From Patescibacteria group bacterium (GTDB lineage Bacteria > Patescibacteriota > Minisyncoccia > Moranbacterales > UBA2206): 40,908 nucleotides of DNA. Of the stretch, positions 1,111 to 35,240 are shown piece by piece. Where the stretch lies: contig JAUPKF010000008.1 in assembly GCA_030837625.1 (NCBI GenBank), positions 1 to 40,908 of the forward strand. Reading direction: 5' to 3'. The translations under genes and the position numbers were made by a program. How positions within the stretch are numbered: position 1 is the stretch's first letter; each line of letters opens with the position of its first letter. Below the pieces are notes generated by a model. The model was not told where the DNA came from, made no database searches, and was given only the letters and a program-made list of their open reading frames with translations.

Positions 1111-1198
1111 ATTCATAATTCTCGGCGCTTCTAGCGACAGAGAAACACCTGATCCCATTTCTTCATCCCCCCACCAATTTTTCCTTTAAATTTAGAAT

Positions 1199-1311
1199 TC
1201 CTGGTGCTACTAACGAAGTGGAAACACCTCTTTCCATTCCGAACAGAGCAGTTAAGCACTTCCGTGCCGATGGTAGCCCTTAATTGAGCGAGAGTAGGTC
1301 AGTGCCAGGTA
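1199..1311 (+). rRNA. rrf: 5S ribosomal RNA (intact inner copy)
   Basis: About 113 nt with all standard 5S landmarks: helix I arms CCTGGTGC and GTGCCAGG (with G-U pairs), GGAAACACC, CCATTCCGAACAGAGCAGTTAAGC and CCGATGGTAG. Its last third (1269-1306) is identical except for one base to the matching part of the split outer 5S (1402-1439), which suggests recent duplication or gene conversion. The flanks TAAATTTA and TGAATTTA add to helix I, and the outer inverted repeat of C/G runs makes a second concentric stem. This is the copy expected to be functional. Confidence 0.92.
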
Positions 1312-1357
1312 TTGTGAATTTAATTAAATTGGTGGGGGGGGACGGGCTCAGCAGTTT

Positions 1358-1385
1358 CCGCCATAGGCGGATCAGCCTTTGGCTG
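1358..1385. repeat. 28-bp double-hairpin palindromic element (copy 1)
   Basis: The layout is CCGCC-3-GGCGG-2-CAGCC-3-GGCTG, that is two adjacent 5-bp hairpins with 3-nt loops separated by 2 nt. It interrupts the 3' half of the split 5S gene between GCAGTT and AAGCC. The same geometry recurs at 32911, 32965, 33049 and 37115. Confidence 0.85.
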
Positions 1386-1469
1386 AAAGCCTGTCAGCGC
1401 TGATGGTAGCCCTTAATTGAGCGAGAGTAAGTCAGTGCCGAGAATTATGAATTTAACTTGAGGTAAAAG

Positions 1470-7425: not shown

Positions 7426-7490
7426 GATTTTAAATCCATTTTAAGATATATTAGACACGCTTTGTTTAAAAGATAAAAGCGTATATTTAT

Positions 7491-8747
7491 ATGGAAAATT
7501 TTGAAATCGTCGGCGGAAAAAAGCTAAAGGGAAGTATCGATGTGCGGGGATCAAAGAATGCCACGACACCTATTTTGGCCGCGACGCTTCTTACTCGCGA
7601 GGAGTGTATTATTTCCAATATTCCGCTTATTGAAGACGTTTTTCGTATGCTGGAAATTCTGGAGAGCATGGGTTCCGAAATAAAGTGGCTGGGTGAGAGG
7701 AAGATAAACGTGAAAAATAAGAATATTGACCCGGCGAAAATAAACGCGGAAACCGTCAAGAAGCTTCGGTCATCAGTCTTGCTTCTGGGTTCTCTTAGCG
7801 CCAGATTCGATAAATTCAAATTTTATCGTCCCGGCGGATGCGTGATTGGAGCGCGACCGTTGGGAACGCATTTTGATGCTCTTAGAAAAATGGGGGTGGA
7901 CATTAAGCAGACTGAAAAACATTATTTCGTCAATATTAAGAAAAGGAAAACCGGCAAAATAACTTTGCAAGAAATGTCGGTGACAGCCACGGAAAATGCT
8001 ATGATGCTGGCGGCGTCCCTTCCGGAGAAAACTGTAATTAAGCTTGCTGCATGCGAACCGCACGTGGAAGATTTGGGAATTTTTTTGGTTTCTTTGGGAG
8101 CTAAAATTAAGGGGCTGGGAACTCATACTCTGGAGATTACCGGTTCCAAAGGGTTGAAAGGAACTGAGCATGTTATAATTCCGGATGCCAATGAAGCGGC
8201 CACTTTTCTGATTATGGGTGTGGCCACAGGGAGCGCCATAAAAGTGAAAAACGCGCGCGAGGACCATCTGGATTTGGTTTTGGAAAAACTGCGTGAATTT
8301 GGAGCTGACTTTAAGATTACCAAAGATTGCATCGAGGTTGTTCCGGCTAAAAAACTTTTAGCGGTTTCCAAAATTGACACCCGGACTTATCCAGGAGTTC
8401 CTTCGGATGTTCAGGCGCCGTTTGGGGTCCTAGCGACGCAAGCCGAAGGACAAACGCTTATTCATGATTCTCTTTATGAGAGTCGCTTTAACTATATCAG
8501 CGAGCTTAAAAAGATGGGAGCCAGAGCGAAAGTTTTGGATCCTCATCGGGTTGCCGTAAACGGTCCTACAAAGCTCAAAGGTAAAAACATCACTAGTTTT
8601 GATTTGCGCGCCGGCGCGACGCTTATTATTGCCGCGCTTCTGGCAAAAGGCAAGACGACTATCCGCGAGATCTATCAGGTAGACAGGGGATATGAGAAAA
8701 TTGAAGAGAGATTGCAAAAACTGGGAGCGGAGATAAAAAGAGTATGA
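7491..8747 (+). CDS. murA: UDP-N-acetylglucosamine 1-carboxyvinyltransferase MurA
   Basis: 418 residues, the usual MurA length. MurA transfers enolpyruvate from PEP to UDP-GlcNAc, the first committed cytoplasmic step of peptidoglycan synthesis. Visible signatures are GSKNATTPILAA with the substrate-binding Lys-Asn, RPGGCVIGARPLGTH with the catalytic Cys at about residue 117 (so fosfomycin-sensitive type rather than the Cys-to-Asp form), TATENAMMLAA, GVPSDVQAPF and LRAGATLIIAAL near the C-terminus. The last four bases overlap the next gene (ATGA), so the two are translationally coupled. A possible promoter (TTTGAT, 18 nt, TATATT at 7447-7452) precedes it but is weak. Confidence 0.97.
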   Translation: MENFEIVGGKKLKGSIDVRGSKNATTPILAATLLTREECIISNIPLIEDVFRMLEILESMGSEIKWLGERKINVKNKNIDPAKINAETVKKLRSSVLLLGSLSARFDKFKFYRPGGCVIGARPLGTHFDALRKMGVDIKQTEKHYFVNIKKRKTGKITLQEMSVTATENAMMLAASLPEKTVIKLAACEPHVEDLGIFLVSLGAKIKGLGTHTLEITGSKGLKGTEHVIIPDANEAATFLIMGVATGSAIKVKNAREDHLDLVLEKLREFGADFKITKDCIEVVPAKKLLAVSKIDTRTYPGVPSDVQAPFGVLATQAEGQTLIHDSLYESRFNYISELKKMGARAKVLDPHRVAVNGPTKLKGKNITSFDLRAGATLIIAALLAKGKTTIREIYQVDRGYEKIEERLQKLGAEIKRV

Positions 8748-32426: not shown

Positions 32427-32445
32427 CTAAAAAGGTTTTGGTGGG

Positions 32446-32582
32446 GGACGAGTCCAAAAGATTGCGGTTTCTCCGTCTGCCTTGCAATGCTAGTTTGCTT
32501 TTAAATATTGATAGGGTGAGTGAAACTTAATCTAAAATTATAATTAAAAAGCAAGGCATTGCGGGCATGGACTCTCGTTGGC
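32446..32582 (+). ncRNA. Candidate structured RNA downstream of tRNA-Glu
   Basis: A long imperfect hairpin: GACGAGTCCA (32448-32457) faces TGGACTCTCGTT (32568-32579), TGCCTTGCAATGC (32478-32490) faces GCATTGCGGGCA, and TTGCTTTTAA (32494-32503) faces TTAAAAAGCAA. A one-sided bulge and an A/T-rich loop remain. No ORF of note. It could be a 6S-like regulatory RNA, a tRNA-linked processing structure, or a degenerate repeat element; I do not recognise a known family. Confidence 0.35.
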
Positions 32583-32702: not shown

Positions 32703-33887
32703 ATGGCTAACGATTATTACAATGCTTTAGGGGTGGGAAAAGGCGCGTCGGATGACGAGATAAAGAAAGCCTATCGTAAATTGGCGCATAAATACCATCC
32801 GGATAAAGCTGGTGGGGATGAGAAAAAGTTCAAAGAAATCAACGAGGCTTATCAAGTCCTTTCCGATAAGGCCAAACGGTCGCAATATGATCAGTTCGGG
32901 CAGACTTTTTCCGCCGGAGGCGGATCCGCCTATGGCGGACAAGGCAGGGGCTTTTCTGACTTCTCCTCCAAAGGCGGACCAGCCTCCGGCTGGGATTTTT
33001 CCGGTTTCGATTTTGGCAACTTTTCGCGGCAAAATAATGGAGGGTTTTCCGCCAAAGGCGGACCAGCCTCTGGCTGGGAGTTCCAATTTGGCGGTGACGA
33101 TCTCGGCGATATTTTCGGAAGTGTTTTCGGCGGCGGACGTTCTCGCGGCGGACGCGCTCGGCGTGGACAGGATATCCAGGTGGACGCGGAAATTGATTTT
33201 TCCGAAATGGTTCATGGCGCCGAGCGGGAAATAAATTTGAGGCGGAGCGTGAAATGTAACCGTTGCGGCGGAACCGGAGCGGAACCGGGAGCGGGGATGA
33301 AAACTTGTCCGACGTGCCAAGGGGCGGGACAGGTGCAAAAAACCGCCCGCGGACTTTTTGGGATGTTTTCTCAAGTCAGCGTTTGTCCCGAATGCGAGGG
33401 CGCCGGGAAGATTCCCGAGAAAAAGTGCTCCCAGTGCGGAGGAGACGGGCGGGTTAAGGAAAATGAGAATATAAAAATCAAGATTCCAGCCGGAATTTCC
33501 AATGGTCAAACAATTTCCCTGGAAGGGAAAGGCGAGGCGGGAGAGAAAGGCGCGCCAGCAGGCAATCTTTATGTCGTGGTTCATGTCAAACCTCATTCGA
33601 AATTCACCCGAAATGGTTTGGATATTTTAAGCGCGGAACACATTTCTTTTTCAATGGCGGCATTAGGGGGAGAAATTGAAATCGAAACGCTTCATGGAAA
33701 ACTGATTCTAAAAATTCCCGCCGGCACGCAATCCGGCGAGACTTTCCGCATCCGCGGCAAAGGTGTGCCGGAATTGAGCGGTCGGGGAGTTGGCGACCAT
33801 CTGGTAAAAATTATTGTCAGAGTCCCTCAACGGCTTACTCGCGAGCAAAAAAGGATTATTGAGGAATTGGGGAAAAATATGCTATAA
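32703..33887 (+). CDS. dnaJ: Chaperone protein DnaJ (type I Hsp40) with palindrome insertions
   Basis: 394 residues from the ATG at 32703 ([12 protein letters not shown]), the family-type start; an upstream TTG-like extension is unlikely. The J domain has YHPDK with HPD at about 32-34. The Gly/Phe-rich linker (about 70-155) contains three in-frame copies of a 28-bp double-hairpin element. Four zinc-binding motifs follow ([32 protein letters not shown]), then the two client-binding beta domains. DnaJ stimulates DnaK ATPase and delivers unfolded proteins. A CIRCE site precedes it, so HrcA control is expected. No grpE or dnaK is adjacent. The 3' end contains the promoter of the next gene. Confidence 0.97.
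32911..33076. repeat. Three 28-bp double-hairpin elements inside dnaJ (copies 2-4)
   Basis: Copies are at 32911-32938, 32965-32992 and 33049-33076, all with 5-3-5-2-5-3-5 geometry (CCGCC/GGCGG or CCTCC/GGCGG then CAGCC/GGCTG; the first has CCGCC/GGCGG twice). All three are read in the same frame; the latter two code K-G-G-P-A-S-G-W. Confidence 0.85.
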
Positions 33888-35183: not shown

Positions 35184-35240
35184 GAAGTAATTTTGGTGCG
35201 GGGTAAAAATCCTCCACGACCCACCAAACCACATTGATAG

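Follow-up and report, generated by a model that had tools for sequence, protein, structure and literature searches.

The window analysed here, 40,908 nucleotides from a Patescibacteria group bacterium (assembly GCA_030837625.1, contig JAUPKF010000008.1), opens with the 3′ part of a 23S rRNA gene (1–812), followed by a 5S rRNA region in which one 5S gene lies inside another. The locus raises the question of which of the two copies is the working gene, where each of them came from and how one came to lie within the other. The window belongs to a genome of 967 kb that is 98.5% complete (G000); the genome of a sibling species is referred to as G001.

The initial annotation had described two halves of a 5S gene flanking an intact 5S. 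Rfam matches and alignment with the sibling confirmed that the nesting is real, and refined the positions to 1120–1161 and 1347–1443 for the outer halves and 1200–1310 for the inner gene, all features being on the forward strand. The 5′ half of the outer gene (1120–1161) runs up to CATTTC of loop C; it aligns, together with its flank, with the plain 5S of the sibling and keeps the near-invariant positions except for the junction and one base. An insert of ∼185 nt follows CATTTC, in the order TTCATCCCCCCACCAATTTTT, inner unit, AAATTGGTGGGGGGGGACGGG, with palindromic arms CCCCCCACCAATTTTT and AAATTGGTGGGGGG. The left arm (TTCATCCCCCCACCAATTTTT; 1162–1182) is followed by the left flank stem of the inner 5S (1183–1199), which by alignment and folding resembles the outer gene's own flank, such that the inner and outer 5S have flank stems in common. 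Next come the complete inner 5S rRNA gene (1200–1310), its right flank stem (1311–1323), which pairs with the left one, and the right arm of the insert (1324–1346), which ends in ..AAATTGGTGGGGGGGGACGGG and pairs with the left arm. The outer gene then resumes with the 3′ side of helix III (CTCAGCAGTT; 1347–1356), placed by alignment with the sibling. A second insert, a REP-like double hairpin of 30 nt (1357–1386) overlooked by the initial annotation, splits the right half in loop B between GTT and AAGC, and the remaining 3′ part of the outer gene occupies 1387–1443. Direct reading showed that the 3′ stretch of 38 nt common to the inner and outer 5S differs by one base, as had been claimed.

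The pairing that had been noticed at this locus was also borne out. The outer ends pair over ∼23 bp when the flanks are counted, and the C/G-rich inverted repeat that frames the inner gene, formed by the insert arms, pairs at −34.6 kcal/mol, with 0 of 200 shuffles as strong. When folded whole, as the initial annotation had proposed, the 356 nt of the locus gave z = −9.1, with the outer ends and the insert arms forming a near-continuous long stem that encloses the inner 5S. Reading the junctions by eye revealed no clear target-site duplication. The 5S insert has no endonuclease gene and no intron match in Rfam; group I or group II intron identity was rejected, as Rfam gave no catalytic-core match there. 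The only intron match in the window lies in the 23S rRNA gene, where a group I intron (RF00028, 72.5 bits) occupies 189–378.

The 967-kb genome contains a single RF00001 match. This is the inner 5S, which is full-length (1200–1310, model positions 1–120) and scores 78.1 bits, above the cut-off of 38 bits; we presume it to be functional. Taken alone, the outer right half scored 13.3 bits against this cut-off, and the outer left half gave no 5S match in Rfam. The loop C motif CCGAAC is kept in the inner 5S and lost from the outer. At 52 near-invariant columns, the outer 5S has four departures, three of them at the broken loop C, and its helices are intact. The inner 5S also has four departures at near-invariant columns, located in stems and at hinge positions. 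The maximum among 31 relatives was three, and the inner 5S is therefore a fairly diverged molecule.

At the syntenic site, the sibling carries a lone plain 5S, which matches the outer copy. Once the inserts are removed, the outer halves align end to end with this gene, flanks included. The resident gene is therefore the outer copy, whose ortholog is the sibling's plain 5S. By identity, the 5′ part of the outer copy is nearest to the sibling lineage (G001, G002 and genus g9) and the 5′ two thirds of the inner copy are nearest to the 5S of other genera (G048; g17), a comparison of nearest neighbours on which the case for a foreign origin is based, since a molecule as short as the 5S does not yield a firm tree. 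In their 3′ parts, the two copies are nearest to each other and far more alike than in their 5′ parts. A mosaic of unlike 5′ parts and alike 3′ ends is the pattern expected if an incoming copy and the resident one underwent gene conversion, and in so short a molecule it is suggestive of such an event. The initial annotation had proposed transposition of a 5S unit into its neighbour followed by gene conversion. The resident outer copy, the dispersed palindromes that supply the arms (described below) and the alike 3′ ends fit this proposal, but the inner 5S does not appear to be a plain duplicate of the neighbouring gene, as its 5′ part is nearest to other genera.

Both inserts in the outer 5S belong to dispersed families. 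The double hairpin segment at 1355–1388 matches ∼20 places in G000, and likewise in G001, so that 1357–1386 is one of many similar double-hairpin copies in the genome, as is typical of REP-like palindromes. A further REP-like copy is present at 33048–33080 of the window (TTTTCCGCCAAAGGCGGACCAGCCTCTGGCTGG). The loop B site between GTT and AAGC is also occupied by a hairpin in the 5S of two other genomes, G120 and G113. The loop C insert has inverted-repeat ends that occur in several genomic copies, in the manner of a MITE. Its arm core, CACCAATT..AATTGGTG, recurs in G000 on contigs C3, C18 and C20 and in the 23S rRNA gene of the window, with AT-rich interiors of 55–76 nt, and variant-arm copies are found additionally on C13, C17 and C20. 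The reversed arm core, used as a control pattern, gave no matches in 25 genomes. The 23S copy, a palindromic element with the same arm core (CACCAATTTT..AATTGGTG) and an AT-rich interior, had likewise been overlooked; it lies on the forward strand at about 616–717, in a hairpin near the 23S rRNA 3′ end (about H98). Two solitary sequences resembling element ends, possibly relics, follow tRNA genes on the same strand: TTTTGGTGGGGGACGAGTC after tRNA-Glu(CTC) (32428–32450) and AATTTTGGTGCGGGGTAAAAATC after tRNA-Lys(TTT) (35186–35210). A scan of viral contigs found no full palindrome. The dispersed copies suggest that the palindromic elements are mobile.

The search of related genomes that the initial annotation had called for found nests in genus g35, which belongs to another family of the order, and in one Kaiserbacteria, one Endomicrobiales and one Nealsonbacteria MAG, the last three through a scan of GTDB contigs. 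Within g35, G113 has a clear nest, whereas the inner 5S is intact and the outer pieces are decayed or half missing in G120, G118, G114 and G119. A single plain 5S with outer-type flanks is found in G121 and G115, and a single 5S with inner-type flanks in G117 and G048. Genus g35 thus displays plain, nested, decayed-outer and inner-type-only states. The genomes with the Kaiserbacteria, Endomicrobiales and Nealsonbacteria nests have one Rfam 5S each, which is the inner copy. In the Kaiserbacteria and the Endomicrobiales nest alike, the inner and outer 5S belong to one type, and the Kaiserbacteria outer copy is decayed. These two nests share with the window the loop C junction CATTC followed by TTCACCC..GGGG. 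The Kaiserbacteria nest has the window's CACCAATTT arms too, with the arm core at its left junction and its insert ending in GGTGCGGGGCGGGC at the same place as the right arm in the window. The Endomicrobiales nest, a label that hinges on the correct binning of a 14.6-kb contig, has another, different double hairpin at the loop B site.

Among 380 genomes sampled from the window's phylum, the exact left junction was found in the window's genome only, and among 341 genomes of the phylum of the Endomicrobiales MAG, that MAG was the only real case. Three two-mismatch matches in the latter phylum were rejected as there is no 5S there, and a match in the viral contigs was rejected as a chance match in protein-coding sequence. 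Four matches of a double-motif scan were off-pattern and were left out of the tally. Also set aside were gammaproteobacterial matches (Colwellia, Marinomonas and Endozoicomonas), which are 5S 3′ pieces downstream of an intact gene and not nests, and chance matches in Abditibacteriaceae and in a Donacia endosymbiont, where the second motif lies in a tRNA. The extra 5S 3′ pieces in Colwellia and Marinomonas (among loci L075–L102) and in Endozoicomonas (L083 and L091) follow a terminator-like hairpin, and Endozoicomonas also has a 5S-like gene with a large loop C insert. At the Kaiserbacteria locus (L084), a repeat GGGCTCGTCCACAAAT..GAACGGGACC is present upstream of the nest and again inside the 3′ part of the outer 5S.

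Nesting is not confined to 5S. Two of the dispersed palindromes contain tRNA-Val genes, each located in the D-loop of another tRNA-Val that is cut in two. The flanks of all tRNAs found in partial scans of four genomes were examined (382 kb of G000, 368 kb of G001, 546 kb of G120 and 400 kb of G825). Across the first three, 14 of the 64 tRNAs lie in or beside a split tRNA: seven of 28 in G000 [Val(GAC), Val(CAC), Val(TAC), Arg(TCG), Arg(GCG), Pro(CGG) and Pro(GGG)], four of 21 in G001 [Thr(TGT), Thr(CGT), Phe(GAA) and Val(CAC)] and three of 15 in G120 [Pro(GGG), Thr(CGT) and Val(CAC)]. No nested tRNA was found among the 12 in the 400 kb of G825, although that genome has a nested 5S. The insertion sites are in or near the D-loop, anticodon loop or T-loop, and some cases retain one outer half only; in G000 Val(CAC), the outer copy is decayed or half missing. 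A REP-like hairpin in the D-loop with an inner gene at the anticodon loop, a two-insert build like that of the window 5S, is seen in G120 Thr(CGT) and G000 Val(TAC).

Anticodons and junctions were read directly, because a null drawn from the flanks of other tRNAs is inflated by motifs that tRNAs share. Where the outer anticodon was readable, the outer and inner genes were the same isoacceptor: Val(GAC), Val(CAC) in G000 and G120, Val(TAC) from its left half only, Pro(GGG) in both families, and Arg(TCG) when read across the insert. In the outer Arg(GCG) gene, the anticodon lies in a decayed arm and is off by a single base (GCT). The other tRNA nests were assigned from their stems and the loop bases next to the cut. 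Identity between inner and outer genes ranged from 0.58 to 0.88, with Arg(TCG) at 0.58. Arm pairing was above all 200 shuffles in eight of the 12 tabulated nests, 5S included [G000 5S, Val(GAC), Val(CAC), Arg(GCG) and Pro(CGG); G001 Phe; G120 Thr(CGT) and Val(CAC)]. It was marginal in Pro(GGG) (six of 200 shuffles as strong) and Thr(TGT) (nine of 200), and non-significant in G000 Arg(TCG) (33 of 200) and G120 Pro(GGG) (62 of 200). Clear arms are thus usual, not universal, among the nests.

The tRNA-Phe gene is nested in G001 and plain in G000, and the plain G000 gene matches the outer G001 gene, not the inner. This mirrors the 5S case, where the outer copy is the counterpart of the sibling's plain gene. 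At the Val(CAC) locus of G001, a left half whose D-loop holds a REP-like hairpin is followed by a GIY-YIG ORF (L142, 1910–2203; PF01541, 1.2e-16), which occurs in this nest only, and then by a complete Val(CAC). In G120, stretches of ∼100 nt that terminate with a directly repeated copy of the tRNA 3′ end follow tRNA-Met, tRNA-Gly(CCC) and tRNA-Lys (L193, 17077–17280; L194, 3270–3490; L222, downstream on the reverse strand near 7448–7523). The Gly and Lys stretches have sequence in common and resemble tiny tRNA-end elements.

The explanation that we favour as a whole, and hold to be rather probable, is that a palindromic element brought a second 5S into the resident gene, which was thereby superseded. 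A small palindromic mobile element with a complete 5S of another type would have split the resident 5S in loop C. The inner 5S would now serve the ribosome, and the outer 5S would be a recently superseded relic, cut further by the REP-like hairpin, with gene conversion having homogenised the 3′ ends of the two copies. Once transcribed, the outer halves would combine with the element arms into a single long stem, and the inner 5S at the tip of this stem would then be cut out. As a wider process, palindromic elements may break structural RNA genes in their loops while the same insertion brings an intact gene with that function; the broken gene would thus be replaced from inside and the outer copy would decay. 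We infer that the replacement gene arrives inside the palindrome rather than being copied in later. The locus would be transcribed and the inner RNA released from the long stem, and the outer copy is probably dead. The rule that the inner and outer genes are the same may be partly a survival effect, because a cell with its sole copy split persists only with an intact one; selection alone does not explain why the intact copy sits inside the insert. A more specific version, which we advance tentatively, is that the insert is a selfish element that enters a loop of an essential structural RNA gene, puts that gene out of action and supplies a functional, often foreign, replacement for it, and so could not be lost once fixed.

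Replacement by an incoming gene has to be weighed against internal duplication, in which loop C already contained a palindrome and a duplicate of the host's own 5S unit was placed at its centre, for example through template switching at a hairpin, with later divergence and gene conversion shaping the two copies and with no foreign cargo. The flank stems and the 38-nt 3′ stretch shared by the two copies would be accounted for, as would the same-type copies in the Kaiserbacteria and Endomicrobiales nests. However, the 5′ part of the inner 5S is nearest to other genera, not to the outer copy. The low identity of the two Arg(TCG) genes and the G001 inner Phe, which is unlike an outer gene that corresponds to the plain Phe of G000, also argue against it, and we regard this origin as unlikely.

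The initial annotation had alternatively suggested a precursor with a split outer 5S. For such an RNA to work, the insert would have to be excised, either in the manner of an intron or through RNase III-type cleavage, leaving an outer 5S that functions, nicked or rejoined, beside the inner one. The intact helices of the window's outer 5S are compatible with this, and those outer copies that are nearly intact [the window 5S, Pro(GGG) and Val(GAC)] could still have a role. A functional outer 5S is nevertheless unsupported and improbable: CCGAAC is gone from its loop C, the insert has no intron match in Rfam, and related outer copies are decaying or half deleted (G120, G118, G114, G119, the Kaiserbacteria nest and G000 Val(CAC)) with the inner gene intact. 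Slightly more doubtful still is that the outer halves are conserved as a processing scaffold whose pairing presents the inner 5S for maturation. The long stem around the inner 5S would suit such a purpose, but the sibling manages without a nest, and relatives retain the inner 5S even where their outer halves are degenerating. Finally, an assembly artefact built from repeated 5S pieces, conceivable in metagenome-derived drafts with short repeats in common, is very improbable because related nests recur in separately assembled genomes, in one instance on a contig of 939 kb.

Essential RNA genes are generally regarded as slow to change and shielded from insertion. In these tiny, mostly uncultured bacteria, the nests suggest replacement of such genes from within by mobile DNA. 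Such a route would allow ribosomal and transfer RNA genes to be exchanged in reduced, single-copy genomes. It would account for decayed half-genes beside tRNAs and 5S, and would open the origin of foreign-type tRNA and rRNA genes to testing. Pipelines that drop internally duplicated 5S sequences or odd tRNAs may be discarding real biology.

The initial annotation knew of no described case of this arrangement. None was found in the open-licence literature, whether tRNA in tRNA, 5S in 5S or any structural RNA gene lying inside a split counterpart of like function; the arrangement is not unique to the locus, however, since it recurs in the 5S of other genomes and in the tRNAs of the same genome. 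The closest 5S precedents are the base-paired expansion segments in loop C and in the loop B/helix III region described by Stepanov and Fox in 2021 (PMC7812874), who also reported 5S pseudogenes with inserts downstream of an intact gene and discarded sequences with internal duplication. Their expansion segments resemble the present inserts in pairing and position, but leave the conserved core intact and hold no second 5S. Here, loop C is broken with loss of CCGAAC, the halves fall below the Rfam cut-off, and the insert holds a complete 5S that alone scores. The pseudogenes are similar in that broken 5S pieces and inserts lie beside an intact 5S, but they are downstream, lack terminal parts and each follow a putative terminator, whereas here both halves frame the intact gene.

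In the kind of insert, the nearest relatives are REP elements, palindromic MITEs and Rickettsia palindromic elements, all of which are short dispersed palindromes, the last also entering genes. The present elements differ in occupying the loops of 5S, tRNA and 23S genes and in that many hold an intact gene with the function of the one they split. The Rickettsia elements receive a passing mention in PMC5799277. Two further systems involve insertion into an essential gene together with supply of a working copy. These are integrative elements of tRNA genes and engineered cleave-and-rescue drives. The present elements differ from the former in having no integrase, the tabulated nests being too short for one (most lack the room), and in that a whole copy of the gene lies inside the insert; they differ from the latter in that an endonuclease gene accompanies one nest only, the G001 tRNA-Val. 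Should the tentative insert-and-rescue reading be true, the GIY-YIG form of that nest would be a natural counterpart of the engineered cleave-and-rescue drives.
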